From Prevotella sp. (GTDB lineage Bacteria; Bacteroidota; Bacteroidia; Bacteroidales; Bacteroidaceae): 42,792 nt of DNA. Within the stretch, counting starts at the first letter, position 1. Each line of letters starts with the position of its first letter. The notes below the pieces were generated by a model that was not told the DNA's origin, made no database searches, and saw only the letters and a list, made by a program, of their open reading frames with translations. The DNA lies in assembly GCA_017554105.1 (NCBI GenBank), contig JAFZIY010000020.1, positions 1 to 42,792 on the forward strand, written 5' to 3'. The position numbers and the translations under genes are program-made. Shown here one piece after another: positions 1-42,685 of this stretch.

Positions 1-1
1 A

Positions 2-211
2 CGCCTGGGCGAACTGGGTCTCTTCTCTCTCGGCATCAACACCAAGCCGGCACCCAGCGCAAGGGAGTTCTCCGCTGCCCAGAACGTGAAGAGCGTGCAC
101 CTGCTGGTGCGCAACACCAAGACATGGAGCAACGCGGAACTGCGCAAGAAGTGCAGCATCAGCGAACTCGAGAAGAATGCGATAGCAGAAGAGGTGACGC
201 CAGCACCGTAG
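2..211 (+). CDS. HU-family (HU-like) DNA-binding protein, 3' end only
   Basis: Only the last 69 codons are inside the window; the frame is open from base 2 to a TAG stop. The visible residues begin RLGELGLFSLGINT, the beta-arm part of the HU/IHF fold as seen in the large Bacteroidetes HU-like family. The typical 'V(N)RLG..G.FSL' stretch leads into a conserved strand and then a basic tail (NTKTWSNAELRKKC). These proteins bind DNA non-specifically or at bent sites and act in the nucleoid. The tail ends AEEVTPAP, a low-complexity end typical of the family. The start and first helices lie outside the window. The family call is inferred from this short C-terminal match, so it is moderately secure. 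Confidence 0.6.
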   Translation, partial: RLGELGLFSLGINTKPAPSAREFSAAQNVKSVHLLVRNTKTWSNAELRKKCSISELEKNAIAEEVTPAP

Positions 212-233
212 GCCCCTCCCATCCATCTGAAAG

Positions 234-291
234 CCTCCCCTCGGGGAGGTTTGGTGGGGGTTTTCTCGGGGAGGTTTGGAGGGGGTTTCTC
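234..291. repeat. GC-rich palindrome followed by two 25-bp direct repeats
   Basis: A perfect 7-bp stem (CCTCCCC at 234-240, GGGGAGG at 243-249) is followed by two near-identical 25-bp units starting at 241 and 266, each beginning TCGGGGAGG and ending in a G-run plus TTT. It sits just after the HU-like stop codon. It could end transcription (stem, then T-runs) or be a dispersed intergenic repeat. Related GC-rich hairpins occur at 5989-6010 and 6050-6085. Confidence 0.6.
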
Positions 292-424
292 ATTCTCCAT
301 CCCGCCACTTTTCGCATGTCAAAACATATACAAACAACAAAGCCGAAGATATATCAAACGCAGGGCGAAAGGACAACTCTAATCGAAATCTTTAAAAGCG
401 CCCTTCAAAAAAAAGACAAAAATG

Positions 425-455
425 TTGCGATATTTGATTGTATTGTGTATCTTTG
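425..455 (+). promoter_or_regulatory. Possible Bacteroidetes-type promoter
   Basis: TATCTTTG at 448-455 matches the TAnnTTTG -7 box exactly. A GTTG at 424-427 lies about 20 bases upstream in the -33 position. It points toward the left inverted repeat and the AT-rich cassette at 676-1753. The only reading frame it meets first is 25 codons long (474-548). Confidence 0.4.
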
Positions 456-565
456 CAGCAAACTACTAAGCCTATGGAAATAACTTGCAAGGACCATTTG
501 GGCAATGTTCTGGCAAGACGGTATTTTATTGTTCCAGTAACAATATGATATGAATATATCTTATC

Positions 566-618
566 GCATTACAAATGCTAATACTCAATGTGGGCAGATT
601 ACAAATCCGCCCGAGCGG
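566..618 (+). repeat. Left arm of 53-bp inverted repeat flanking AT-rich cassette
   Basis: This 53-bp segment equals the reverse complement of 1828-1880 with three single-base differences, at 580, 591 and 601. It contains two smaller palindromes: GCATT-aca-AATGC at 566-578, and GGGC-n-GAT...ATC-n-GCCC around 592-612. The two arms are 1.2 kb apart and enclose both genes of the cassette. Similarity stops abruptly at both ends of the 53 bp. Confidence 0.9.
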
Positions 619-675
619 AAAATCAAAACGTATTGGAACTGCTGATGAAAATTTAAATATATATAAAAAATAGAT

Positions 676-1194
676 ATGGATAAAGCAATCTACAACGATG
701 AATTTTGGTTAAAGGTGTTTAAACGGAAATTTAAAACCGGAATAGCTTACAATGCCTGTATCATGGACTTCTTATCAAGCAAACAAAGAGTCCTCTTTAC
801 AATCCGACGTCTTATGGAAATTCCTATTAGTCAAGCTCGTATTGTCATTCAATATTGGGAAAAGACTAAAACTGTAACCGATTTGCTAGACAAATATGGT
901 TTAAATAGTTATCAGGTAATAAGAGAATACAAGATAAACCATGTTAAACCTGGCTATATTAATATTGATATATCATCACAGACTTTTAATGAACTATTTT
1001 TGCACGAATTGTTAGCGCGACATTATGGTTTAGACTTTTCACGTTCTAATGCTCTTAACCTCGTTCCCTATTTCATTATTGACACAGGAAACTTGGAAAT
1101 AATTGCCATTAAATGCTATGATGACAGGGGCTTTTATCAGTATTTTATCAGGAAGGAAGATAAAAGATTCAAGAAAATCGGGGATTCTGAATGA
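676..1194 (+). CDS. Hypothetical 172 aa protein in AT-rich cassette
   Basis: I do not recognise a family. The protein is soluble-looking, with no signal peptide or membrane helix. Residues about 30-95 look helical and basic (SSKQRVLFTIRRLMEIP, then ARIVIQYWEKTKTVTDLLDKYG), followed by a mixed alpha/beta half ending in charged residues. The ATG lies 58 bases inside the left inverted repeat, after an A-rich leader, which is usual for translation starts here. The gene is followed after 31 bases by a lipoprotein gene on the same strand, so the two are probably cotranscribed. Base composition is much more AT-rich than in neighbouring housekeeping genes, suggesting transfer. A cytoplasmic effector or DNA-associated role is possible but unsupported. 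Confidence 0.65.
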   Translation: MDKAIYNDEFWLKVFKRKFKTGIAYNACIMDFLSSKQRVLFTIRRLMEIPISQARIVIQYWEKTKTVTDLLDKYGLNSYQVIREYKINHVKPGYINIDISSQTFNELFLHELLARHYGLDFSRSNALNLVPYFIIDTGNLEIIAIKCYDDRGFYQYFIRKEDKRFKKIGDSE

Positions 1195-1225
1195 TTTATG
1201 GACTAGATTGGATTAAATATACAAG

Positions 1226-1753
1226 ATGAAAATGATGAAGAGATATATGTATTATATATTTGTTATGTTGAGCATAACAAGTTGTTCTTTTGATTCTAAC
1301 TATGACTACAGATTGTCTAGTTTAAATCATAAGGAACTTGCCTATAAAGAATTACCTGACAGCGTAAGGGCACTTTTATATTCCGCAGCAGTTGGTCATA
1401 TAAAAAGAAACAACCTGCTATTTGTAAACCCTTCAGATAGTTCTATATATCATTTCAAAGTTGTTGAGTCTATATTTGTTAGTTCATGGACTGCATATTG
1501 TAAGTTAATAGATACTGACAAGAACATCATTTATAGAATTGAACGAGGTGTGCCTCTACCTTATATTATTGACAGTAATACAAACAAATTATATATACCC
1601 ACTGATTATATAATCCTTTCAAGAATCAATATAGCATTTGATAGTATTAGAAAACAAAGAGGTATATGTAGTGCTGATATCGCGGAATCTATCGTAATTG
1701 CTGCTAACGATAAAATATATAATGCTTTATTTACCGAATACGAATTAAAATGA
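1226..1753 (+). CDS. Hypothetical lipoprotein, 175 aa, in AT-rich cassette
   Basis: The N-terminus has a basic start (MKMMKRY), a hydrophobic stretch and the lipobox SITSC, so it should be lipidated at the Cys near residue 20 and anchored to an envelope membrane. The mature part (about 155 residues) is mixed charged/aromatic and matches no family I know. The start could also be M4 (1235), which leaves a shorter basic region. The gene follows the 172 aa gene by 31 bases in the same orientation and shares its AT-rich composition. A cytoplasmic protein plus an AT-rich lipoprotein resembles some effector/immunity or antagonism pairs, but nothing in the sequence proves that role. Confidence 0.7.
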   Translation: MKMMKRYMYYIFVMLSITSCSFDSNYDYRLSSLNHKELAYKELPDSVRALLYSAAVGHIKRNNLLFVNPSDSSIYHFKVVESIFVSSWTAYCKLIDTDKNIIYRIERGVPLPYIIDSNTNKLYIPTDYIILSRINIAFDSIRKQRGICSADIAESIVIAANDKIYNALFTEYELK

Positions 1754-1827
1754 GGAATGTTTACAAAATCACTTTATATCAAGGTCTATTCCATACACTA
1801 TCTGCTGGGCGGCACCGTAGTGTTCAC

Positions 1828-1880
1828 CCGCTCGGGCGGATTTGCAATCTGCCCGCATTGAGTATCAGCATTTGTAATGC
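1828..1880 (-). repeat. Right arm of 53-bp inverted repeat
   Basis: Reverse complement of 566-618 with 50 of 53 identical bases. It contains the same two nested palindromes, GCATT/AATGC and GGGCGGAT/ATCTGCCC types. It begins 75 bases after the stop of the lipoprotein gene. Confidence 0.9.
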
Positions 1881-1980
1881 ACAATAAACCAAACCTATGG
1901 CAACATTAAGTTTTACAAAAGGACTCTATATTCTGCGTGACTTTAAGAAGTTCACCAGCAAGGCAAGAAGGAACCATTCA

Positions 1981-2005
1981 GCACTGCCATAAGGCGGTGC
2001 TTTTT
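1981..2005 (+). terminator. Rho-independent terminator
   Basis: The stem GCACTGCC / GGCGGTGC (8 bp, one G-T pair) has an ATAA loop and is directly followed by TTTTT. It would end rightward transcripts leaving the cassette region. Confidence 0.7.
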
Positions 2006-2060
2006 GTTTATGGAAAATTCAACATTTCAACATTTGCCCTTTTGGGAATAATAGAATAAT

Positions 2061-2091
2061 AGCGGTTGCACCTTTGTGGATTGCAGCCGCT
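2061..2091 (-). terminator. Possible terminator after the SGNH esterase gene
   Basis: The arms AGCGGTTGCA (2061-2070) and TGCAGCCGCT (2082-2091) pair over 10 bp with one wobble. Read leftward, the hairpin lies 27 bases after the esterase stop and is followed by an AT-rich stretch (attattctattatt) rather than a clean T-run. Confidence 0.4.
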
Positions 2092-2117
2092 ATGTCATTT
2101 GTTGTTGCCCTCGGGCT

Positions 2118-3224
2118 TTATCTCTCTATCTTCACAGAACTCTCTGTTCCGTCGATGGCGGTGACGACGAAGATGAGGACCTGCTCTTTCTCGAGGCCCT
2201 TGAGGTTTACCATCATCTTGCGGTCGGCAATTCCCATAGTGTCGAACTGCGCCACTTTCTTCCCGCTGTAACTTACGATGGATATTCTGTTTATCGGCTT
2301 CTCGCTCGTGACAGTGGCACGGTTGCCTTTCTTGTTCAACTTCACGTCAACGTCAAACTGCCCGGCATCGCTGCTGTTGTCGTCGAGAGTGTCGTCTGTG
2401 ACCTTTATGCCCAAGGCGTCGAGAGCGGCAATAGCATAGCGCTTTCCTAACTTACGGTATCCCTCGGTGGAGAAATGCACGTTGTCGCTCAGTGGCGCAC
2501 AGCCCTTGCTGCTCACCACGTAACTCGTCTTTATCCATTCGGGCAGTCGCCTGATTGTGGGTATTGCGTGTGCGCATACTCCGTTGTAGGTGCTGTCGAC
2601 TGTCTCGCCTGCGATGATGGGACAGTCCTCGGCCTTGAGGTTCAGTTGGCTGAGTATGTTCTCATATACGTCTTTCACCATCTGGAGCCAGGTGTCGTTG
2701 TATGCGTCGGTCTCTCCCTGATGGAGCAGTATGCCCTTTATGACACCTTCGTTCTGTGCTTTCCTGGCGAGGGTGAGCAGTCGCTGAAGCGGGTCGCCAC
2801 CATAGCAGTTCACCTCGTTGCGCTGCCAGTCGGGCAGGTCGCCTGCCGTCCATTGCTTGCAGGAGTCGGGATGGAAGAGCCTTATCGAGCATCCGTCGAC
2901 GGCAACGATTATCGTTCCGACGCGCACGTTATCAGGGAGATGCTCCACCATCGTGCGTCCGAAGTAGTCGGTAGGACCAATCTTGGTGTACTGACGTGCG
3001 AGCGGTGGGATGGCAATGCGCCATTTCCCCATCTCGTGTATGTCGCAGTCGGATGCCGTCATATTCTGGAATCTCGGGCTTACGATGGAGTCCTCATATT
3101 CTATCGGTCCCTGTCCCACCATGTTGGACTGTCCGATGGCGAGATAGATGTAGAAGTTCTGGTCCTGTGCGTGGCAGACGGCAGTTGCCAGCATCATGAG
3201 AAACGTTATCGCAAAATGTTTCAT
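2118..3224 (-). CDS. Secreted SGNH/GDSL-type carbohydrate esterase (sialate O-acetylesterase-like)
   Basis: Probably removes acetyl groups from glycans outside the cytoplasm. Residues 1-20 form a signal peptide ending CHA-QD. The catalytic blocks of the SASA/CE6-type fold follow in order: GQSNMVG near residue 33 (nucleophile Ser), HQGETD near 167, and DNVHFSTEG near 246 (Asp and His). After about residue 270 there is an extra acidic linker (DDTLDDNSSDAG) and a roughly 80-residue beta-rich domain (RISIVSYSGKKV ... DGTESSVKIER) that resembles C-terminal sorting or adhesion tails of Bacteroidetes secreted proteins. The gene stands alone, divergent from the helicase gene. Substrate (acetyl-xylan, sialate or other) cannot be told from sequence. 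Confidence 0.82.
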   Translation of the reverse strand: MKHFAITFLMMLATAVCHAQDQNFYIYLAIGQSNMVGQGPIEYEDSIVSPRFQNMTASDCDIHEMGKWRIAIPPLARQYTKIGPTDYFGRTMVEHLPDNVRVGTIIVAVDGCSIRLFHPDSCKQWTAGDLPDWQRNEVNCYGGDPLQRLLTLARKAQNEGVIKGILLHQGETDAYNDTWLQMVKDVYENILSQLNLKAEDCPIIAGETVDSTYNGVCAHAIPTIRRLPEWIKTSYVVSSKGCAPLSDNVHFSTEGYRKLGKRYAIAALDALGIKVTDDTLDDNSSDAGQFDVDVKLNKKGNRATVTSEKPINRISIVSYSGKKVAQFDTMGIADRKMMVNLKGLEKEQVLIFVVTAIDGTESSVKIER

Positions 3225-3249
3225 AGTGTCTGTTGTTAGTAATCCGTTA

Positions 3250-3257
3250 CAAAAGTA
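3250..3257 (-). promoter_or_regulatory. -7 box for esterase gene
   Basis: On the minus strand TACTTTTG matches TAnnTTTG. It lies 25 bases before the ATG. A clear -33 TTTG is not present; TTTC is found near the right distance. Confidence 0.5.
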
Positions 3258-3310
3258 GTAATTATTCTCGAGACCGCCGAAATTAATTAGGACAATTGGA
3301 ATATTTTTAT

Positions 3311-3318
3311 TATTTTTG
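3311..3318 (+). promoter_or_regulatory. -7 box for helicase-exonuclease gene
   Basis: TATTTTTG matches TAnnTTTG and ends 10 bases before the ATG at 3329. Transcription would begin only a few bases before that ATG. This rules against the longer frame that opens with TTG at 3296. Confidence 0.6.
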
Positions 3319-3328
3319 TGGGCGAAAC

Positions 3329-5968
3329 ATGGAAGCGAAACAGTATGACGAGCGCCAGAGGGAGGTGATAGAGGCCGGCGAGGGCTATCATCTGGTGCTT
3401 GCTCCTCCCGGGTGCGGTAAGACGGAGGTTCTTGCCGAGCGAATCCTGCGTGCCCATCGTCGTGGAGTGCCCTACAGTGACATGCTCTGCCTGACCTTCA
3501 CCAACCGTGCCTCACGGGGAATGCGCGACCGTATAGAGCAGATGGCGGGCGACTCGGTGGATGAGTTGTTTGTCGGTAACATACACCGCTTCTGCTCCAA
3601 GTTCCTCTTTGAGAATGAGGTGCTGCCGATGGAGACGTCAATCCTCGACGAAGACGACAGTGCAAGCATCATCGCCGACTACATGCAGCAGGACGAACTC
3701 ACGGTGATGGGTGACGCGAAGGTGCGCCATCAGTACTCAACGATAGTCAATCTCCAGCATTTCATGCACCAGTATGCGGGTGGCTATCCCAAGGAACTGA
3801 CCGTACACAGCGAGGACCTGAACGCAAAGGCATTGCGGCAGATATGCTCGATAATGATGAAGGACTTCACCCGCGACAGCATCACGGAGTTCTATCGTAA
3901 CATAGACGACTATGGACGACTGGCGGAACTGAACCGCAACGGTGAGTTGCAGAACTTCATACGCATGATGTCGGCTGCCCGTCATTATGAGAAATACAAG
4001 AAGCAGCACAACCTCGTGGACTTCGCCGACCTTCTCCTCATTGCATACGACACGCTGAGGGACGGCTATGACGGCAAGCGCTACGGCTGGATTCAGATAG
4101 ACGAGATACAGGACCTTAGTCCCCTGCAACTGGAGATTGTCAGCCTCATTACTTCCCAGGATTCGCCGACGGTGATGTATCTTGGTGACAGCCAGCAGGC
4201 CATATACTCGTTCATGGGTGCCAAGAGTGAGACGCTAAACCAACTCGCAGGTCATTGCAAGATACACAACCTCTATACGAACTACCGCTCACCGAAGTAT
4301 CTGCTTGAGGTGTTCAACACCTACGGGCATCAGATGCTGGGACTTGACGAGCGCCTGCTGCCACAGACAAACAGGAGTGTGGAGGCACAACGGGGTGACC
4401 TTCTGATAACATGCTCGGAGAATAACATCGACGAGCAGCAGGATGTGGCGGAACTTGCGAAGCGCATACACACGCGATATCCTGACGAGACGATAGCAGT
4501 GGTGGTGAGTTATAACTCGGAGGCCGACGACATCAGCGCACGTCTCACAAACCTCGGGGTGAACCATTTCAAGGTGTCGGGGCGTGACCTCTTCTCAGAG
4601 CCCGCCGTGAAACTGCTGCTGGCTCACCTCAGTGTGTCGATGGGCGACCACGATTTCCTCGCCTGGTCGCGCATTGTGGCTGGCATAAAGGCCGTAGGCT
4701 CTAACTCTGCGGCACGTGATATGGTGCGTGACCTCGCACTGAACGGTATGACACCTGCCGACCTCATGCGTGATGACGGCATCACCTCGTTGCAGGAATT
4801 CCTTCAGGCTTATTCGCATGATGATATCGTGGTGTTCGACACCGAGACCACAGGACTGTCGATAGAGGAGGACGATGTGGTGCAGATAGCGGCCATTAAA
4901 CTGCATAAGGGCGAGTATGTGGAAGGCTCGGAGTTTAATGTCTTTATCAGGACACAGCGTGAGATACCTCGGATGCTCGGTGATATTGAGAATCCTCTGG
5001 TGGAAGAATACCAGAGACAGGAGATACTTGAGGCAGACGAGGCGATGCGGATGTTCATCGACTATGCCAAAGGGTGTGTGCTTCTGGGCCACAACTCAAT
5101 GTACGACTATCATATCATGGACAACAATATGCGTCGCCGTTGTGGGAGAAACGACTTCAGGCAACTGTTCCCACGTTGTCTCGACACGTTGCATATGGCA
5201 AGAATCATCAATCCCCGGTTGAGGAGTCATAAGTTGAAGGACCTGATAACGGAGTTTGATATTGAAGGGCAGAACTCACATCTTGCCAATGACGACATCG
5301 TGGCCACGTGGCATCTGGCGGACTTTTGTTTCAGGGAAGGACAGAAGAAGGCGGCATTGCAGGTGGATATACCGATAAAGTACAGTCGTGCGATGAAACG
5401 TCTGCGCGAGACCTACAAACCGCTTTATGACCACACCCGTAGCATCCTGTATGATGAATATGATGGGGATGAACCGGCACTGCTCGCGGAATGGCGCTAT
5501 GCCTACGAAACCCTGATATTGCTGGGACGCATAGAGCCGATAGGGAAGATGTCGTATGCGGAGCAATATATACGCGATGAGGTGATAGGTGAGGACCGCA
5601 GTCCGTTGCATGTGCAGTTGGAGCGGTATATGAACATGCTGAACACCCTGAAGGAGGCCGACCTCTGTGGTAGCGCCAGCATGCAGGAACGTGTGTTCGT
5701 CTCTACCGTACATAAGGCAAAAGGTCTGGAGTTCGACAACGTCATCGTATATGAGGTGAGCGACGGGAACTATCCCGGATTCTTCGCTCGTGACGATATG
5801 AAAAGGCAGGAAGAGGAGATGCGCCGTCTGTATGTCGCCCTGTCACGGGCAAAGCATCGCCTGATACTCACCTGGAGCCGTAAGCGGGTCACGCAATGGG
5901 GTAGGGTGTTTGACCAGAATCTGTCCCCGTTTGTCGCCTGCATCGCCCGTTTCTTCCAGAAAATGTAG
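3329..5968 (+). CDS. UvrD/PcrA-type SF1 helicase with embedded DEDDh 3'-5' exonuclease
   Basis: An 879-residue DNA repair or processing enzyme. Helicase motifs: Walker A APPGCGKT (residues about 25-32), QIDEIQDLSPLQ (DExQD, motif II), YLGDSQQAIYSF (motif III), then motif V VHKAKGLEFDNV and motif VI RRLYVALSRAKH near the C-terminus. Between the two helicase halves, residues about 498-665 form a complete DnaQ-like domain. ExoI is FDTETTGL, ExoII GHNSMYDYHIMDNN, and ExoIII HLANDD, so all DEDDh residues are present. The polypeptide therefore joins unwinding with proofreading-type 3'-5' digestion. The start is set at 3329 because a -7 promoter box lies at 3311-3318. It stands alone, flanked by a divergent esterase and GC-rich repeats. 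UvrD-exonuclease fusions occur in Bacteroidetes; their exact role is unclear. Confidence 0.9.
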   Translation: MEAKQYDERQREVIEAGEGYHLVLAPPGCGKTEVLAERILRAHRRGVPYSDMLCLTFTNRASRGMRDRIEQMAGDSVDELFVGNIHRFCSKFLFENEVLPMETSILDEDDSASIIADYMQQDELTVMGDAKVRHQYSTIVNLQHFMHQYAGGYPKELTVHSEDLNAKALRQICSIMMKDFTRDSITEFYRNIDDYGRLAELNRNGELQNFIRMMSAARHYEKYKKQHNLVDFADLLLIAYDTLRDGYDGKRYGWIQIDEIQDLSPLQLEIVSLITSQDSPTVMYLGDSQQAIYSFMGAKSETLNQLAGHCKIHNLYTNYRSPKYLLEVFNTYGHQMLGLDERLLPQTNRSVEAQRGDLLITCSENNIDEQQDVAELAKRIHTRYPDETIAVVVSYNSEADDISARLTNLGVNHFKVSGRDLFSEPAVKLLLAHLSVSMGDHDFLAWSRIVAGIKAVGSNSAARDMVRDLALNGMTPADLMRDDGITSLQEFLQAYSHDDIVVFDTETTGLSIEEDDVVQIAAIKLHKGEYVEGSEFNVFIRTQREIPRMLGDIENPLVEEYQRQEILEADEAMRMFIDYAKGCVLLGHNSMYDYHIMDNNMRRRCGRNDFRQLFPRCLDTLHMARIINPRLRSHKLKDLITEFDIEGQNSHLANDDIVATWHLADFCFREGQKKAALQVDIPIKYSRAMKRLRETYKPLYDHTRSILYDEYDGDEPALLAEWRYAYETLILLGRIEPIGKMSYAEQYIRDEVIGEDRSPLHVQLERYMNMLNTLKEADLCGSASMQERVFVSTVHKAKGLEFDNVIVYEVSDGNYPGFFARDDMKRQEEEMRRLYVALSRAKHRLILTWSRKRVTQWGRVFDQNLSPFVACIARFFQKM

Positions 5969-5988
5969 TTTCTTTACCCCGCCCCTGC

Positions 5989-6010
5989 CCCCGCCCCTCA
6001 AGGGGTGGGG
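5989..6010. repeat. GC-rich hairpin repeat, copy 1
   Basis: CCCCGCCCCT (5989-5998) pairs with AGGGGTGGGG (6001-6010) around a CA loop. It shares the core GCCCCTCAAGGGG with the second copy about 60 bases downstream. It follows the helicase stop by 21 bases. It could stall transcription but has no T-run. Confidence 0.65.
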
Positions 6011-6049
6011 AAACGTTAGTGCAGGCTCTATTACTTATCCTGATGCCTC

Positions 6050-6085
6050 CCTGCCCCTCAAGGGGAGGGGAAGGGGTGAGGTCTG
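6050..6085. repeat. GC-rich hairpin repeat, copy 2
   Basis: The same GCCCCTCAAGGGG core (6053-6065) continues into GAGGGGAAGGGGTGAGG. Together with copy 1 and the copy at 234-291 it looks like a dispersed intergenic element family. Confidence 0.6.
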
Positions 6086-6132
6086 AAATGCCGCTAATTC
6101 TCACAGGTCAAATAATATAGTGTTTCTTTTAT

Positions 6133-6163
6133 TTTGTTTTTTAGTCTCTTTTCATTAATTTTG
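6133..6163 (+). promoter_or_regulatory. Promoter of the RluA-family gene
   Basis: TTTG at 6133-6136, a 19-base spacer and TAATTTTG at 6156-6163: a full match to the Bacteroidetes consensus. The ATG begins only 7 bases after the -7 box, so the mRNA is expected to be leaderless or nearly so. Confidence 0.75.
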
Positions 6164-6170
6164 CACCGAA

Positions 6171-7061
6171 ATGAAAAGGAGAGTTATCTGTCAGAAGGGC
6201 GACTACGACACTTATGTGGTTGAGAAGGACCAGCCGTTGCTGGAGTTCCTTCTTGAGAAAGTGCAAGGTCAGAGCCGTTCGAAGATAAAGGCTACGCTGC
6301 AGGGACACGGTGTTCTTGTTGGGAAGACGTGCGTAACACAGTTCGACTACCCCCTGAAGCCAGGCATGCGGGTATCCGTAAGTAAGACAAAGCGTAACCA
6401 GAATGTGTTGCGCAGCCGTTATGTCAAGATAGTATATGAGGACCAGTATATCGTCGTTGTGGACAAGGCGGTGGGAATACTCTCTATGGCTGCCGGTCAT
6501 TCGTCGCTGAATGTAAAGGCTGTTCTCGACGACTACTTCCATATGTCAAAGCAGCATTGTCAGGCGCATGTGGTGCATCGTCTCGACCGTGATACCAGCG
6601 GGCTTATGATATACGCCAAGGACATGCAGACGGAGCAGGCACTGGAGCGCGACTGGCACGGAATAGTGTATGACCGTCGTTATGTGGCCTTGCTGTCAGG
6701 CAGGATGGAGCAGCAGGAGGGGACTATCTCCAATTGGTTAAAGGACAATGCCGCATATATCACCTTTTCTTCTCCGGTCGATAATGGCGGAAAGTATGCC
6801 GTCACACATTTCTATACCCTTGATATTATAGGCAACCGCTCGTTGGTGGAGTTCCGCCTTGAGACGGGAAGGAAGAACCAGATACGCGTGCATGCTGCCG
6901 ATATGGGACATCCTGTGTGTGGTGACGTGAAATATGGTAACGGCGATGACCCTGTAGGGCGCCTGTGCCTTCATGCCTACGTTCTGTGCTTCTACCATCC
7001 TGTTACCCATGAGCGTATGGAGTTTTCTACTCCTGTGCCACAGGTATTTATAGTGAAATAA
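6171..7061 (+). CDS. RluA-family pseudouridine synthase
   Basis: Converts uridine to pseudouridine in rRNA or tRNA in the cytoplasm. Residues about 15-75 form an S4-like RNA-binding region (LLEFLLEKVQGQSRSKIK). The catalytic domain carries HRLDRDTSGLMIY near residue 135, whose Asp is the family's catalytic residue. Further on come the conserved GRKNQIRVHAADMGHP and GDVKYG blocks. At 296 aa it is of normal length for RluA/RluD proteins. The target site cannot be assigned. Downstream, after 29 bases, comes a 58-codon membrane protein gene on the same strand, ending at a shared terminator. Confidence 0.92.
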   Translation: MKRRVICQKGDYDTYVVEKDQPLLEFLLEKVQGQSRSKIKATLQGHGVLVGKTCVTQFDYPLKPGMRVSVSKTKRNQNVLRSRYVKIVYEDQYIVVVDKAVGILSMAAGHSSLNVKAVLDDYFHMSKQHCQAHVVHRLDRDTSGLMIYAKDMQTEQALERDWHGIVYDRRYVALLSGRMEQQEGTISNWLKDNAAYITFSSPVDNGGKYAVTHFYTLDIIGNRSLVEFRLETGRKNQIRVHAADMGHPVCGDVKYGNGDDPVGRLCLHAYVLCFYHPVTHERMEFSTPVPQVFIVK

Positions 7062-7090
7062 AAATTTTTAATGAATAAAAGCAACGAACA

Positions 7091-7267
7091 ATGGATTTCA
7101 AGAATTTATTATATAGCGATTTTCTGTACTATCTGTTTGGTATAATAGTGCTGGTGACGGTCTTCTTCCTGATGAAGAAAATAACTAGTTGCCTGATAAA
7201 GACCGTAGTGATGATAGTGATTCTCGCTATATTGAGCGTGATTTATTATATCTACTTCATGCAATGA
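7091..7267 (+). CDS. Small two-helix membrane protein, 58 aa
   Basis: The reading frame starts MDFKNLLYSDFLYYL and ends YYIYFMQ. Two hydrophobic helices (about residues 12-28 and 35-54) are separated by a short basic loop with KKITS and a Lys. It lies between the RluA-type gene and a strong terminator, so it is likely cotranscribed with the former. The A-rich leader before the ATG is typical of this genome. No function is known to me; its hydrophobic pattern and placement make a real gene likely. Confidence 0.65.
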   Translation: MDFKNLLYSDFLYYLFGIIVLVTVFFLMKKITSCLIKTVVMIVILAILSVIYYIYFMQ

Positions 7268-7284
7268 CATGAAGCAGGACAAAA

Positions 7285-7310
7285 AAAGGTAAGGGAAGTC
7301 CCTTACCTTT
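7285..7310. terminator. Bidirectional terminator
   Basis: A perfect 11-bp stem AAAGGTAAGGG / CCCTTACCTTT with AAGT loop is preceded by an A-run and followed by AACTTTTT. It lies between the convergent 58-aa gene and the DUF4923 lipoprotein gene and can serve both. Confidence 0.8.
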
Positions 7311-7348
7311 AACTTTTTCCGTCTATATATCTCCTATACTCTCAAGGA

Positions 7349-7996
7349 TTATCTGTTCAGGTCGAACCCGAGGCGCACACCATCGTAATTCTTGCTTATC
7401 TCACCGATGGTTGAGAGTGTGCTGTTGCCGCTTGCTGAAGCAATCACCTGCAGCACGTTGAGAAGTTTCTTTGACTCGAAAACGAGGCTTACTCCCTTCG
7501 CGTTACGTGTTACATATCCTGTGGTGGAGAGCAGTAAGGTCTTGAACTTTATCGAACTGTCAGACTTGTCGTAGGTGTAGGTACCGCTGATCTTCGTGCC
7601 GGCGATGCTTGCCGTAAAGGTCTTGTCCTGGTTGAAGGTGAATGTAGTGTTTGACCTGTTGATACCTATCTTGGTATAAGTGTTCTGTAGTTCGTCCTCG
7701 ATTTTCTTTGCCGCTACCTCACCTCCGGCCTTAGCGAGCAGTTGGTCGCTGGTGAAGGCACATCCTGGTGACTCGTATGCCCATGTGCCATAGAGGTCTT
7801 GCTCGTTGATTTTGGATAGTCCGATGACGTTGTAGATGATGTTTGAGAGTGTCTCGCCGTCGGTTGCCGCTCCGAGAATACTACCCAGAATGCCCGTACC
7901 ATCAGAACCAGTGCCGGTTCCCAGTCCTGTAAGTCCGCCACAACTGCTTAACAGCAGTGTTGCAGAAAACGCAAAAATACTTAATTTCTTTTTCAT
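7349..7996 (-). CDS. DUF4923-type lipoprotein
   Basis: A 215 aa envelope lipoprotein. The signal peptide ends in the lipobox LLLSSC with Cys at about residue 19, then a Gly/Thr/Ser-rich linker. The body carries LYGTWAYESPGCAF and TFTFNQDKTFTASIAGTKISGTYTY-like strands, read in pieces. This gives a lipocalin-like beta-barrel pattern as in the DUF4923 family of Bacteroidales. The role is unknown; it is probably surface- or periplasm-exposed. A -7 box at 8050-8057 precedes it, and the terminator at 7285-7310 follows. It stands alone as a transcription unit. Confidence 0.75.
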   Translation of the reverse strand: MKKKLSIFAFSATLLLSSCGGLTGLGTGTGSDGTGILGSILGAATDGETLSNIIYNVIGLSKINEQDLYGTWAYESPGCAFTSDQLLAKAGGEVAAKKIEDELQNTYTKIGINRSNTTFTFNQDKTFTASIAGTKISGTYTYDKSDSSIKFKTLLLSTTGYVTRNAKGVSLVFESKKLLNVLQVIASASGNSTLSTIGEISKNYDGVRLGFDLNR

Positions 7997-8049
7997 AATG
8001 ATAGTGTTTTATGATGTTATTAGTTTGAATGATAATGGATTATATGCTG

Positions 8050-8057
8050 CAAAGATA
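8050..8057 (-). promoter_or_regulatory. -7 box for DUF4923 lipoprotein gene
   Basis: On the minus strand the sequence is TATCTTTG. It lies 53 bases before the ATG at 7996. No exact TTTG was found at the -33 position. Confidence 0.5.
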
Positions 8058-8095
8058 ATGTTTTTTATTATAAAAGAAATAAACCAGGGAAATAA

Positions 8096-8728
8096 TTAAC
8101 TGTTTTCCTCATCAAATATCCTGTCGAACACCTCTTTGAGAAGTGTTTTGTTCTCAATCAACTCTCTTATTCTCTTCAAGTTAGCCTCGTTGGGCGAGCC
8201 TGGAATCCATAGTTTTATATAGCCGTTGTGAGAGTATTTGTTCTCCATGTGCTGACAGAAGCGTTTCCATTGTCCCTCCCTGTCAAGTTCGGGATAGTTG
8301 GAAAGTCCGAACTGTATGGTACGCCGGAACACTCTGTCGGGCTCAAGGTCGCGGTCTGCCTCCGCTACAATCTTGCCGTAGATGCTGCGTGGTGCGTGGC
8401 TTGCGGAAGCACGATGGTCTTCTACTGCCTCCTTCATGATTTTCAGTTTGTCTTGTGAGAACCAGCGTTTCAGACGTGCGTCAGCAATGAGAATCTTCCC
8501 GCTTGTGATATGGTGTACGGCACGTGGACCGGAAAGACCGAGGTCGTGATATGCTGCAACGGTATAGGCCATATCGAGGTCGGCTCCCAGTTTGCGTGCG
8601 ATGTCAAGCGAACGACGCACCACAGAGGTGACATGTTCCATATTATGAGCCTTATCAAACTCGGCATATCGAGGCAGGATGTGCTTCTCAATAAACTCCA
8701 TTAAGTCGAGGCTGACGTTGTTGTCCAT
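8096..8728 (-). CDS. HD-domain metal-dependent phosphohydrolase
   Basis: A 210 aa cytoplasmic protein of the HD superfamily. Visible metal-binding elements in order are the His of AHNMEHV (residue about 30), the paired HD of AAYHDLGL (about 61-62), EDHRAS (about 104) and EADRDLE (about 123). These agree with small HD phosphohydrolases that cleave phosphate mono- or diesters, often nucleotides; the substrate is unknown. The GPRAVHHITSGKI segment between the HD and EDHR elements is also typical. It is transcribed divergently from menA, and the two promoters overlap in the 72-base gap. The ATG lies 23 bases after the -7 box. Confidence 0.8.
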   Translation of the reverse strand: MDNNVSLDLMEFIEKHILPRYAEFDKAHNMEHVTSVVRRSLDIARKLGADLDMAYTVAAYHDLGLSGPRAVHHITSGKILIADARLKRWFSQDKLKIMKEAVEDHRASASHAPRSIYGKIVAEADRDLEPDRVFRRTIQFGLSNYPELDREGQWKRFCQHMENKYSHNGYIKLWIPGSPNEANLKRIRELIENKTLLKEVFDRIFDEENS

Positions 8729-8747
8729 AACGAAAAGGCATTTTATT

Positions 8748-8779
8748 TTTGCAAATATACATATAAATGTTTATTTTTG
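8748..8779 (+). promoter_or_regulatory. Promoter of menA
   Basis: TTTG at 8748-8751, a 20-base spacer and TATTTTTG at 8772-8779, ending 21 bases before the ATG at 8801. The longer frame starting with TTG at 8777 would begin within this box and is unlikely. Confidence 0.7.
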
Positions 8780-8783
8780 CAAC
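8752..8783 (-). promoter_or_regulatory. Promoter of HD-domain gene, overlapping the menA promoter
   Basis: On the minus strand GTTG (8783-8780), a 20-base spacer and TATATTTG (8759-8752). The two opposed promoters occupy the same 32 bases, so RNA polymerase cannot sit at both at once. Confidence 0.6.
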
Positions 8784-8800
8784 GTTTTTCGGAAAGAATT

Positions 8801-9700
8801 ATGAAAGATACAGTAAAAAAGAACTCCATAAGGGCGTGGCTGCTGGCCTCTCGTCCCAAGACGCTCAGCGGTGCCGCCGTGCCTGTGATGATAGGGTTGT
8901 CCTTAGCGTATGCCGACCTTCGTTCTACGGGAGGCTTCAATTGGATTCCTGCCCTGTTGTGTATGCTCTTCGCCTTCGTGATGCAGATAGACGCTAATTT
9001 CATAAATGACTATTTCGACTTCGTTCGTGGTAATGACGATGAGACACGTCTGGGGCCCAGAAGAGCATGTGCCCAAGGGTGGGTAAGCAGCGATGCTATG
9101 CGTATAGCCATTATGATTGTTACGGCATTGGCGTGCGTCATAGGACTTCCGCTGGTTTTGTATGGAGGACTGGAGATGATACTTATAGGAGTAATATGTA
9201 TTATCTTTTGTTTTCTATATACCACAAACCTCAGTTATCTCGGTCTCGGAGATGTCCTCGTCCTTGTATTCTTCGGTATTGTTCCCGTATGTATTACATA
9301 TTATATAGAGACTCAGACGGTAACATTCCAGGTGTTCGTGGCCTCTCTTGCATGTGGTCTGGTAATTGACACGCTGCTTGTCGTGAACAACTATCGTGAC
9401 ATAGAGAACGACCGTCGTGCAGGGAAGAACACGCTTTGTGTGCGGATGGGTGAGCAGTTGAGTCGCTGTTTCTATCTGGCTCTCGGCATATTCGCCTTCC
9501 TGCTGGGCGGGATATTTCTTGTAAATGGTCATTACCTGGCCTTCGTCCTACCTCTTGTCTATCTCTTATTGCACTATTATGCCTATAGGAAAATGGTGAA
9601 GATAGTCAAGGGCCAGGCACTAAACAAAGTACTTGGCGACACCGCTCGCAATATGCTTGTCTATGGAATACTTGTGTCGTTGGGAATGCTGTTGTCTTAA
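8801..9700 (+). CDS. menA: 1,4-dihydroxy-2-naphthoate polyprenyltransferase (menaquinone synthesis)
   Basis: Attaches the polyprenyl chain to DHNA in the inner membrane to make demethylmenaquinone. The protein belongs to the UbiA family. It opens with AWLLASRPKTLSGA. The first Asp-rich motif is NFINDYFDFVRG (about residue 70) and the second VVNNYRDIENDRRAGK (about residue 200). About eight hydrophobic helices follow the usual pattern. Its length of 299 aa is normal. The ATG at 8801 is chosen because the promoter -7 box lies at 8772-8779. It converges on the porin gene, and the two stop codons overlap by 4 bases. No other men genes are in the window. Confidence 0.93.
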   Translation: MKDTVKKNSIRAWLLASRPKTLSGAAVPVMIGLSLAYADLRSTGGFNWIPALLCMLFAFVMQIDANFINDYFDFVRGNDDETRLGPRRACAQGWVSSDAMRIAIMIVTALACVIGLPLVLYGGLEMILIGVICIIFCFLYTTNLSYLGLGDVLVLVFFGIVPVCITYYIETQTVTFQVFVASLACGLVIDTLLVVNNYRDIENDRRAGKNTLCVRMGEQLSRCFYLALGIFAFLLGGIFLVNGHYLAFVLPLVYLLLHYYAYRKMVKIVKGQALNKVLGDTARNMLVYGILVSLGMLLS

Positions 9701-12030
9701 TTGAAGAAGTTCCAGGACACTCCGAATCGCAAGATACGCTCGTTAAGAGGGTAGTGGGGAGTAAGGAAATAGTTCCGCTTCCCGGAATGAGCATTCACGT
9801 GGCTCATCATTACAAAGAAACGGGCGTGCTTGAGATGGAAGTTCGCATAAACGTTTATTATGGGATAGTTGCCTATTTCCACCTTACTATCACTATTCTC
9901 CTGCACGGTATATTGTCCGAGAGACGGGCAATAGTCGGGCGCATAGTACTTGGTGAAATAGCGAACGTCGGCTCCGAGGTCGCAACGCAGCACGCGGGAT
10001 ATCATGAAGTTCAGGAAAAGGTTGGTGTAGATGTTAAGCCTCGGAACGGGCAGGACATCTGTATTGCTGGACTCCTGATAGGTGAGTACGGTCTCCCAGC
10101 ACAACGGTCCGAACCTCAGGTCTTGCGAAAGTTGTGCGGTAAACAGGCTGATGTTCCCACTATGCTGTCTTACGGCAACGTCATTACCGACGCGCAGATA
10201 CTTGTCTGTCAGGGAGTATTGCTGCCCGAAGTAAGTATAGTTCTTCAGGGTCTCTGCTGACACACGCAGCATTGTGCCGGTCTTCTTCAGGGAAAGGCGG
10301 CCTTCTATGCGTGTGCGTATCTCCTTTGACAGTTCGTCATTGTCCCACCATAGGTGACGTGCATGATAATGACGGTAATAGAAGGTGGGGTTGAGTCGAT
10401 GGAAATATGCTCTTGCAGCCAGGCTTACGGTATCTCCGAATAAGCGGAAGTTGAAGTCTGCCTTAGCATCGACGTTCAACTGCCCGGCATCCTCGCCCAC
10501 GAGCCACGTCTCGGCCGTGATGTTATAATGAAGCATGCGTCCCTCTTTCTTGCTCAGTTGTCCGCCGATGCTCAGGGAATGCTCGTTATATATGTTGTTC
10601 CCACCAAGTGAGTCAGGCAATACGAAGTGTCTGAGGTCGTGTGTGACAAAAGCCTTCAGTCCCGCTTTAGCCCATTTGTTAAATCCTTCCAGCAGCGCTA
10701 TGGCGAAGGTGTTCTTAAGGTCATAGTGCTTTGTCTTGTCATATATGGAGTCGCCGGTCAGCCTGCCAATATTATAATAATGATTTTCGTAGAAGTCCTC
10801 AGGAGTCTTATAAGCCTCATAAATACGCTTGTAGTTGTCGAAATGCAGGGTGTGGATGAAACTGGTAACAGGCACATACTCGTTCTTTAGCCACATAGAG
10901 TCTTCCTTGGCTTTAAGGTCAGCCGCGATAAGACTGTCAGCCATAGCCTTGTCAGTAATGGTTATGCGTCCGTTATCTGCTGTTGCCAAAGAGTCAACGG
11001 GCTCGTCGCCGGCTATCTTGGCATCGTCTGGTCGTCCCGAGAACGTCTTCTGATTGTCATAGGCATCCTCATCGAAGTCGCGTCCTTCGCGCAATGCTCT
11101 CCTGCGTTCCTGCTCTTTTGCCTTAGCGGAATCATTCTCCCTTCTCGACTCCATAGCAAATTTCTTTGCCTTTATCTCCTCCTCGGTCATGGGAACCTTA
11201 CGATTGAAGCCCACATTAAACCGATGAGAGAGAAATATGTGCTGATTGTCGTTACGGTTCCAGTTCTGTTCAAGCACGGTAGGTATTTCGTTTGAACGGT
11301 AGTTGTCGTCGAATAATTCCGGGTGGGTAACATACCTGTCGTCGGTAATACCTCCGTTTTCTGCTATTTTCTGATGATTGGTGGAGAGAATGAGATGAGC
11401 CTGATACCGTTCGCCAAGATAAGAGCCGAACATAGTATAGTTGAAGTGGCTCGTGCTTTGGTTCTGATAGTATCCCCGGCCATAAATGTAGTCGAACTTA
11501 AATCCCAGACCTAACTTCTTACCCGCATTAACAGCAAACAAAGCCTTAAGGTGGTCCTCGCCGTTGGTCCTGTTTCCCGCAGTGTTGAATGACAAGTTTG
11601 TTATTGGCGACAACGTGTTGGTGAAGTGCAGTCGTCCGGGTTTGGTGATGAAATAGTCGAAAGGCTGGGTGAAGATGAAATGGTCCTGTTCTTCCCTGTC
11701 GGCAAATATACGGTTAATACGTGGGGACCCCACGTTTCCCAATGAGTTATACTCTCCTCGAAGACCAGTATTGAATATCGAATTCATGTACATATGTGGC
11801 ATAGTATCGGGCTCCGCCGATTGCCTGTCACCAAAACGCTCGTCAACGGTCCATACCTTCAGTCCTCTTGGTATTTCCTTGTGAGTAACGCCCAGTGAGT
11901 CGTTACGGTTCCTTCTTTGGGTGGAATTCAATATCTCTCCATCCTCATTGATGGATGAATAGTCTTCTTGCGCCATTACATTCGTCGTAGTGGCGATGAT
12001 AAAACATAAGATTGTGAGAACCTTCTTCAT
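9697..12030 (-). CDS. Putative outer-membrane porin, Porin_10 family
   Basis: A 777 aa protein with a signal peptide (cleavage about VMA-QE, residue 21), an N-terminal periplasmic region and many amphipathic aromatic beta strands. It ends in the outer-membrane pattern RFGVSWNFF. The conserved family stretch around DYFITKPGRLHFTNT and 'SPITNLSFNTAG' supports the Porin_10 call. Residues about 275-385 form an unusually charged Lys/Glu/Arg/Asp-rich segment (TEEEIKAKKFAMESRREND) that breaks the barrel pattern and is probably a large loop. The gene is directly preceded by a small membrane protein gene with no gap, so they form an operon together with the DUF4468 gene. The substrate is unknown. Confidence 0.82.
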   Translation of the reverse strand: MKKVLTILCFIIATTTNVMAQEDYSSINEDGEILNSTQRRNRNDSLGVTHKEIPRGLKVWTVDERFGDRQSAEPDTMPHMYMNSIFNTGLRGEYNSLGNVGSPRINRIFADREEQDHFIFTQPFDYFITKPGRLHFTNTLSPITNLSFNTAGNRTNGEDHLKALFAVNAGKKLGLGFKFDYIYGRGYYQNQSTSHFNYTMFGSYLGERYQAHLILSTNHQKIAENGGITDDRYVTHPELFDDNYRSNEIPTVLEQNWNRNDNQHIFLSHRFNVGFNRKVPMTEEEIKAKKFAMESRRENDSAKAKEQERRRALREGRDFDEDAYDNQKTFSGRPDDAKIAGDEPVDSLATADNGRITITDKAMADSLIAADLKAKEDSMWLKNEYVPVTSFIHTLHFDNYKRIYEAYKTPEDFYENHYYNIGRLTGDSIYDKTKHYDLKNTFAIALLEGFNKWAKAGLKAFVTHDLRHFVLPDSLGGNNIYNEHSLSIGGQLSKKEGRMLHYNITAETWLVGEDAGQLNVDAKADFNFRLFGDTVSLAARAYFHRLNPTFYYRHYHARHLWWDNDELSKEIRTRIEGRLSLKKTGTMLRVSAETLKNYTYFGQQYSLTDKYLRVGNDVAVRQHSGNISLFTAQLSQDLRFGPLCWETVLTYQESSNTDVLPVPRLNIYTNLFLNFMISRVLRCDLGADVRYFTKYYAPDYCPSLGQYTVQENSDSKVEIGNYPIINVYANFHLKHARFFVMMSHVNAHSGKRNYFLTPHYPLNERILRFGVSWNFFN

Positions 12031-42600: not shown

Positions 42601-42685
42601 GGAGAGATGGTAGAGTGGTCGATTACAACGGTCTTGAAAACCGTCGTGCTGAGAGGCACCGGGGGTTCGAATCCCTCTCTCTCCG
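42601..42685 (+). tRNA. tRNA-Ser (anticodon TGA)
   Basis: An 85-base cloverleaf. The acceptor arms GGAGAGA and TCTCTCC pair over 7 bp, with discriminator G at 42685. The anticodon stem CGGTC...AACCG encloses the loop with TGA. A long variable arm (CGTGCTGAGAGGCACC region) marks the serine type, and the T-arm has GGGGG-TTCGAAT-CCCTC. CCA is not encoded. Confidence 0.95.

Follow-up and report, generated by a model that had tools for sequence, protein, structure and literature searches.

The 53-bp inverted repeat that brackets a pair of small AT-rich genes near the left end of this Prevotella contig (the window, that is, the whole stretch of 42,792 nucleotides analysed) is best explained as the facing termini of two decayed elements of the REP-associated tyrosine transposase (RAYT) type, both of which read in the same direction. 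According to this explanation, to which a probability of about 0.75 is assigned, the pair lying between them would be a leftover of Rhs polymorphic-toxin modules, and the two genes are likely orphan immunity genes.

Orphan immunity genes help to decide which cells survive toxin attack in gut communities, and little is known of how they part from their toxins and how they are disseminated. At this locus, a transposase family that is said not to appear to move as a unit seems to have left multicopy ends, as well as a captured Rhs core, at the edges of such genes. Two questions can therefore be put to the test: do RAYT elements move as units, and do they contribute to the building of orphan immunity sets? 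The features to which the text refers are the following:

448..455, plus strand: putative promoter element (TATCTTTG) upstream of the cassette, proposed from the sequence
474..548, plus strand: 24-codon leader ORF (MEITCKDHLGNVLARRYFIVPVTI, then stop), apparently running from an Rhs-core piece (KDHLGN..) into a RAYT 3' end (..VTI, then stop), by comparison with the Rhs gene of locus L122 and the RAYT end of locus L079
532..565, plus strand: flank A, probably a 3'-end remnant from a RAYT element; in L079, the RAYT gene is followed by the same bases (10 copies aligned)
566..618, plus strand: left arm (arm+), predicted double-hairpin REP terminus of a RAYT element, from arm alignments and folding
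620..673, plus strand: end of the gene for an Ntox21-like Rhs toxin, 17 codons (KSKRIGTADENLNIYKK, then stop), by comparison with the toxin ends at loci L147 and L148
676..1194, plus strand: ORF1, 172 aa, proposed cytoplasmic orphan immunity protein against an Ntox21-like toxin, from homologues located behind toxins
1200..1229, plus strand: tail of a lipase-type Rhs toxin, about 8 codons (GLDWIKYTR, then stop), by comparison with the toxin end at locus L130
1226..1753, plus strand: ORF2, 175 aa, lipoprotein, proposed orphan immunity protein against a lipase-type Rhs toxin, from its homologues
1790..1828, plus strand: Rhs-core scrap (SIHYLLGGTVVFT) before the right arm, which by eye resembles TDYLLGGSLTLKNGRI in L079
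1828..1880, minus strand: right arm (arm-), predicted REP terminus of a second RAYT-derived element, from arm alignments and folding
1881..1965, plus strand: flank B, internally deleted 5' end of a RAYT gene (MATLSFTKGLYILRDFKKFTSKA), by comparison with the intact MATLSFTKELYFTTST.. in L122; the middle of the RAYT protein P0001 reads DFKKFTSKAV..
1980..2006, plus strand: terminator-like hairpin (AGCACTGCC..GGCGGTGCT, then T-rich), recognised by eye

The inverted repeat and its outer flanks

Positions 566-618 and the reverse complement of 1828-1880 share 50 of 53 bases, with no pairing immediately beyond the arms, so that the repeat is as long and as sharply delimited as the first-pass annotation had described it; across 20 block-shuffled versions of window positions 1-6000, the best 53-base inverted match is 34. 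The same annotation was right about the AT-rich nature of the insert (31.3% GC at 619-1827 versus 49.6% at 2118-12000) and about the absence of a transposase between the arms, where two ORFs were found. When folded as a single strand, each arm forms two hairpins, GCATT-ACA-AATGC and GGGC.GATT-NNN-AATC.GCCC, with z scores of -2.27 and -2.09 (6 and 7 of 200 shuffles, respectively, fold equally well).

In the genome to which the window belongs (G000, 3.12 Mb), seven copies of the arm were found at five loci: two in the window itself (contig C18), two at C29:269.5-270.5k, and one each at C13:29995, C29:131029, and C29:221373. With this copy number, a high-copy intergenic repeat was rejected for this genome. 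A search of viral contigs gave no exact match to the arm pattern. Related double-hairpin repeats were observed in a Prevotellaceae MAG (CAMIYC, L058), in which opposed pairs located between ordinary genes look like scattered REPs or REPINs, with no Rhs genes visible nearby. The Rfam scan of the window yielded a single match, a tRNA gene at 42601-42685, near the right end of the contig. At positions 240-288, CTCGGGGAGGTTTGGnGGGGGTTT occurs twice in tandem; this is probably another dispersed intergenic repeat, since similar bases recur between genes in the relative G028 (L164:679-712 and 4050-4083).

The sequence flanking each window arm on the outside is also repeated elsewhere in the same genome, and the left and right flanks differ. 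These outer flanks are of two kinds: A, located to the left of the left arm, ends in ..TGAATATATCTT[AG]TC, and B, located to the right of the right arm, begins with ACAATAAACCAAACCTATGGCAACATTAAG. In G028, kind A corresponds to the 3' end of a RAYT gene (encoding P0001, which ends in ..YIHMNPVRQEFVDKPEDYLYSSARDYCGGKGLIDVTVTI and a stop), and kind B to the 5' end of a RAYT gene (MATLSFTKELYFTTSTIIDWMDVF..MTNHLHMIVG..). RAYT homologues (E up to 1e-20) are present in 21 of the 398 genomes of the genus, and 9 of the 22 RAYT loci are flanked on each side by arms in inverted orientation (L091, L092, L095, L097, L098, L099, L101, L102, and L103), the other loci being cut by contig ends, one-sided, or without a match. 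The protein at L092 matches both REP_Tyr_transpos (NF047646, 2.3e-29) and Y1_Tnp (7.6e-8) over the cut-off. Because the outer flanks correspond to RAYT 3' and 5' ends and RAYT loci have arms on both sides, the arms are, as judged from these alignments, the REP termini of a RAYT element, whose transposase is of the HUH type. The elements that they bound are external to the two genes, which therefore do not form the interior of one transposon and lie instead between the 3' end of one RAYT element and the 5' end of another.

The own genome holds only remnants of these elements, and no cognate RAYT was found in it at E up to 1e-20. Its two Y1_Tnp genes were rejected as cognate transposases because their inverted repeats differ from the arm; these RAYT-like genes, L023 (C29:321500-324500) and L024 (C15:247000-250000), are each located near their own inverted repeats, which represent further REP families.

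The borders of the arms were analysed in 20 copies, comprising the full set of 7 from G000 and 13 of the 18 detected in G028, after leaving out four tandem or partial copies (in which further element DNA takes the place of cargo) and L076 (whose RAYT side is cut). Mean pairwise identity for kinds A and B is 0.90 and 0.94 over the last 20 bases on the RAYT side and 0.94 for both in the arm, and it falls to 0.31 and 0.30 in bases 4-23 of the cargo side, which reveals a sharp border. In kind B, the cargo starts with a G in 10 of the 10 copies used, and in 12 of 13 when the three B copies left out are included (L076 is the exception). This recurrent G, from few copies, hints at a preferred target adjoining the RAYT 5' end; in the sections available of PMC6006769, IS200/IS605 elements are described as having a preferred target at their left end.

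The same sections describe RAYT subclass 2.6 as mostly from Bacteroidetes, with unusual REPs that lack GT[AG]G, proteins of about 179 aa, and the motifs NH[LIV]H, WQ, YIH[QN]NP, and SS (PMC6006769). Of these traits, NHLH and SS are present in the RAYTs studied here, the protein at L092 has 181 aa versus about 179 aa, WQ is found in P0001 and WK in L092, and YIHMNP stands in the position of YIH[QN]NP.

The gene pair and the Rhs remnants around it

The first-pass annotation described the pair as an unrecognised cytoplasmic protein plus a lipoprotein. Both ORFs are present, neither of them has a Pfam or NCBIfam match near the cut-off or a PADLOC match, and ORF2 contains ..SITSC, which is lipobox-like by eye. 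Matches of ORF2 to a tetracycline-resistance leader peptide are weak and far under the cut-off, and this candidate was rejected. The two genes are co-oriented, with GC contents of 33.1% and 29.7%.

Counting the own genome, homologues of ORF1 occur in 8 and those of ORF2 in 13 of the 398 genomes. ORF1 homologues are encoded directly behind toxin C-termini at L147 (ending in ..RIGTADKNLKIFKK and a stop) and L148 (ending in ..RIGTADKNLNIFKK and a stop), and both toxins match Ntox21 (5.3e-6 and 5.7e-9, respectively). At L130, an ORF2 homologue with 65% identity is located directly behind a toxin that ends in ..VQDWIKYTKTK and a stop, matches Lipase_3 (1.1e-5), and exhibits the Rhs-core motifs DHLGN, YPYG, NGKE, and YDYGAR. 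All Pfam RHS models are under the cut-off at L147 and L130, so the Rhs label at these loci rests on the core motifs. Inspection by eye of about 1.5 kb on each side revealed that, of 12 loci with an ORF2 homologue, 6 have Rhs pieces upstream (L130, L131, L134, L138, L140, and L142; the own genome and G028 are not counted) and the other 6 have none, and that a toxin tail is located directly upstream in only 2 of 7 ORF1 homologue loci; these counts speak against a link to Rhs alone. The scrap before the right arm has also been likened by eye to the core sequence TDYLLGGSLTLKN. With two toxin tails, two immunity homologues, and core scraps on both sides, the locus belongs with the orphan modules of Rhs polymorphic toxins, and the cargo resembles two Rhs immunity modules that have been orphaned by the near-complete loss of their toxin genes.

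Upstream of the cassette, the putative promoter element can be read against TAnnTTTG, a -7 element of Bacteroidota. The stretch from this element to the left arm is common to the window, C29:270k (90%), and C13 (86%). In uninterrupted form, the leader is found in contig C5 of G028 as a short Rhs gene (L122:6563-7042; MEIKNYISFQERYKDHLGNNR.., MEIKNYISFQERYKDHLGNNRMVIDSEGN.., Rhs_assc_core 7.6e-12), behind which are found a lipoprotein-like gene, then arm-, and then a RAYT remnant. This gene (L122:7045-8160), located directly behind the short Rhs gene in the position of an immunity gene, encodes a lipoprotein-like product of 372 aa that has a TonB_C domain (9e-11).

The most probable course of events is that Rhs loci received RAYT-derived elements, by insertion or by recombination, and that most of the toxin sequence then disappeared. 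Of the toxin genes, 17 and about 8 codons would have remained at the 3' ends, while the reading frames of both immunity genes were preserved. These genes would now sit behind a promoter-leader block of Rhs origin, from which they may be expressed. ORF1 would likely function in the cytoplasm as an orphan immunity protein against an Ntox21-like toxin of neighbouring cells, and ORF2 in the envelope against a lipase toxin of neighbouring cells. Several results weigh against this explanation: neither a cognate RAYT nor a complete Rhs core was found in the own genome, many homologue loci show no Rhs piece or toxin tail upstream, the cargo of C29:270k is unassigned, and the comparison with G028 yielded no empty site.

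The truncation of the RAYT and Rhs pieces also agrees with plain decay, in which the region would be a dying Rhs locus riddled with REP elements and without present function, as does the fact that no complete Rhs core was found in the own genome (TIGR03696, E up to 0.01), G028 having three matches. Nevertheless, both immunity ORFs are open at full length and the promoter-leader block has been kept at C18, C29:270k, and C13, which makes this explanation unlikely.

Recurrence of the layout

The first-pass annotation had proposed a search for the same arms around other gene pairs, and they do flank other small genes in both the own genome and G028. Including the window, six two-armed cassettes are known from the two genomes (C18 and C29:270k in G000; C1, C5, C20, and C34 in G028), all with the layout (A)-arm+ cargo arm-(B) and with the cargo gene directed from arm+ towards arm-. 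The cargo of G028 C20 is a homologue of ORF2, about 41% identical to that of the window, which has its own toxin tail (..FHNSHNQVSTWINKIK, then stop). Rhs-core-like scraps precede arm- in G028 C5 (NRGITGITYDYGH) and C1 (RIDYDMMNNPVRIQF), and the cargo of G028 C34 is similar by eye to an ORF of L140 that follows an ORF2 homologue and an Rhs C-terminus. The cargo of C29:270k has no recognisable identity and no homologue outside its own genome among 319. Among the one-armed loci, that at C29:131k carries Imm-NTF2-2 (8.6e-21), and the cargo at C13 has weak homologues in 3 other genomes of the 319 (E 3e-8 to 1e-4; L153, L154, and L155), all of them in or beside Rhs-like genes by eye. An ORF fragment at L119:3-971 (G000 C29, about 262.0-263.0 kb) looks by eye like a reverse transcriptase (..YKLDIHNYFNSIS..).

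The common polarity bears on the suggestion, made in the first-pass annotation, that the segment 566-1880 is an invertible switch flipped by a recombinase. The long and nearly perfect inverted arms would suit such a switch, but the six cassettes share one polarity relative to their flanks and genes, and no recombinase was found among the 19 window ORFs scanned, all left of 34.9 kb (43 ORFs of at least 150 aa are listed); this suggestion appears highly improbable. An integron-like or shufflon reading was dropped once the outer flanks had been read as RAYT and Rhs-core DNA.

The cassettes could also be non-autonomous mobile units, in which a RAYT acting in trans would move arm+, cargo, and arm- together, the RAYT remnants being merely old neighbours. 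Six cassettes with differing cargo and one polarity are consistent with this, as are the sharp borders between arm and cargo. However, in both flank types conservation extends outward across the arm and on into the RAYT sequence, which indicates that the arms end elements located outside the cargo. Moreover, no cargo was found twice between arms, the closest pair being ORF2 of the window and its G028 C20 homologue, and no arm was detected, with up to 13 mismatches allowed, at any of the 19 homologue loci elsewhere (12 for ORF2 and 7 for ORF1). Such units are unlikely. Of the earlier proposal of a mobile unit or cargo cassette, what survives is that the arms are ends of mobile-element DNA and bracket other small genes; what counts against it is that these elements lie outside the pair and that the homologues are armless. 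The bounded-cassette idea had been said to fail if the arms were repeated at hundreds of positions and orthologues occurred without them, and the second circumstance was found but the first was not. No empty site was found in the comparison with G028, in which synteny is intact from window position 2118 rightward (77% over 3.4 kb) and the left neighbour is a different gene.

Known systems and a chimeric RAYT/Rhs-core element

The explanation based on two facing RAYT elements combines known parts in a new way. REPtrons (RAYT or TnpA-REP genes flanked by REPs) are said, in the text available from PMC6006769, not to appear to transpose as a unit. The elements described here resemble them in the HUH-type RAYT gene, the inverted hairpin repeats on both sides, and the repeat copies elsewhere in the genome; in contrast to the REPtrons described there, RAYT ends are here multicopy, sharp-bordered, and located beside genes proposed as orphan immunity genes, and one derivative holds an Rhs core. 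The recombinase-associated acquired interbacterial defence (rAID) systems, as presented in the part consulted of a preprint (PMC12247911), are arrays of orphan immunity genes with a tyrosine recombinase. The window shares with them co-oriented, AT-rich, putative orphan immunity genes in Bacteroidales, with a GC content under the 41% used for rAID. Unlike rAID arrays, which are headed by the tyrosine recombinase, it shows two genes with RAYT/REP boundaries and no recombinase among the 19 ORFs scanned of the 43 listed.

Polymorphic toxin loci with standalone toxin cassettes and polyimmunity loci, as surveyed in 2012 (PMC3482391, consulted in part), are similar in their series of toxin tails, immunity genes, and core fragments. 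That survey lists Ntox21 as a polymorphic toxin and treats lipoprotein immunity as rare. In the loci that it describes, toxin domains are exchanged by recombination, whereas here the cassette edges appear to be RAYT termini and a core patch is found inside a RAYT-derived element. A literature search, thin on subscription journals, returned nothing joining RAYT or REP sequences with orphan or Rhs immunity; in the available text of PMC10210955, which deals with Neisseria CREE repeats, the REP phrase occurs once, in a reference title, and the present arrangement is not described.

The derivative that holds an Rhs core is located in contig C34 of G028 (L079:1068-1550, 483 bp) and consists of arm-, a RAYT 5' end, an Rhs core (VPNITVAIGSTREFIPSEI..KDHLGN), a RAYT 3' end, and arm+. 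The joint between the internally deleted RAYT 5' end and the Rhs core (..SKA|VPNIT) recurs at five loci of two genomes (C29:221k in G000; C1, C17, C34, and C5:8k in G028). It is tempting to speculate that a RAYT-derived element with an Rhs core captured between its REP arms could act as a mobile homology block, which, by landing in Rhs loci, would sever toxins, keep immunity genes, and give a portable recombination handle for swapping them, although this should be regarded as a tentative possibility. If true, it would represent a further route to acquired interbacterial defence beside AID-1 and rAID, as well as an instance in which a RAYT element travels as one unit.

The window shares the internal RAYT deletion, but it departs from the joint pattern right after SKA. 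In G028, four contig ends carry RAYT 5' ends without the deletion and two others carry RAYT 3' ends; their outer neighbours differ, which indicates that RAYT is probably multicopy in this genome and breaks its assembly.
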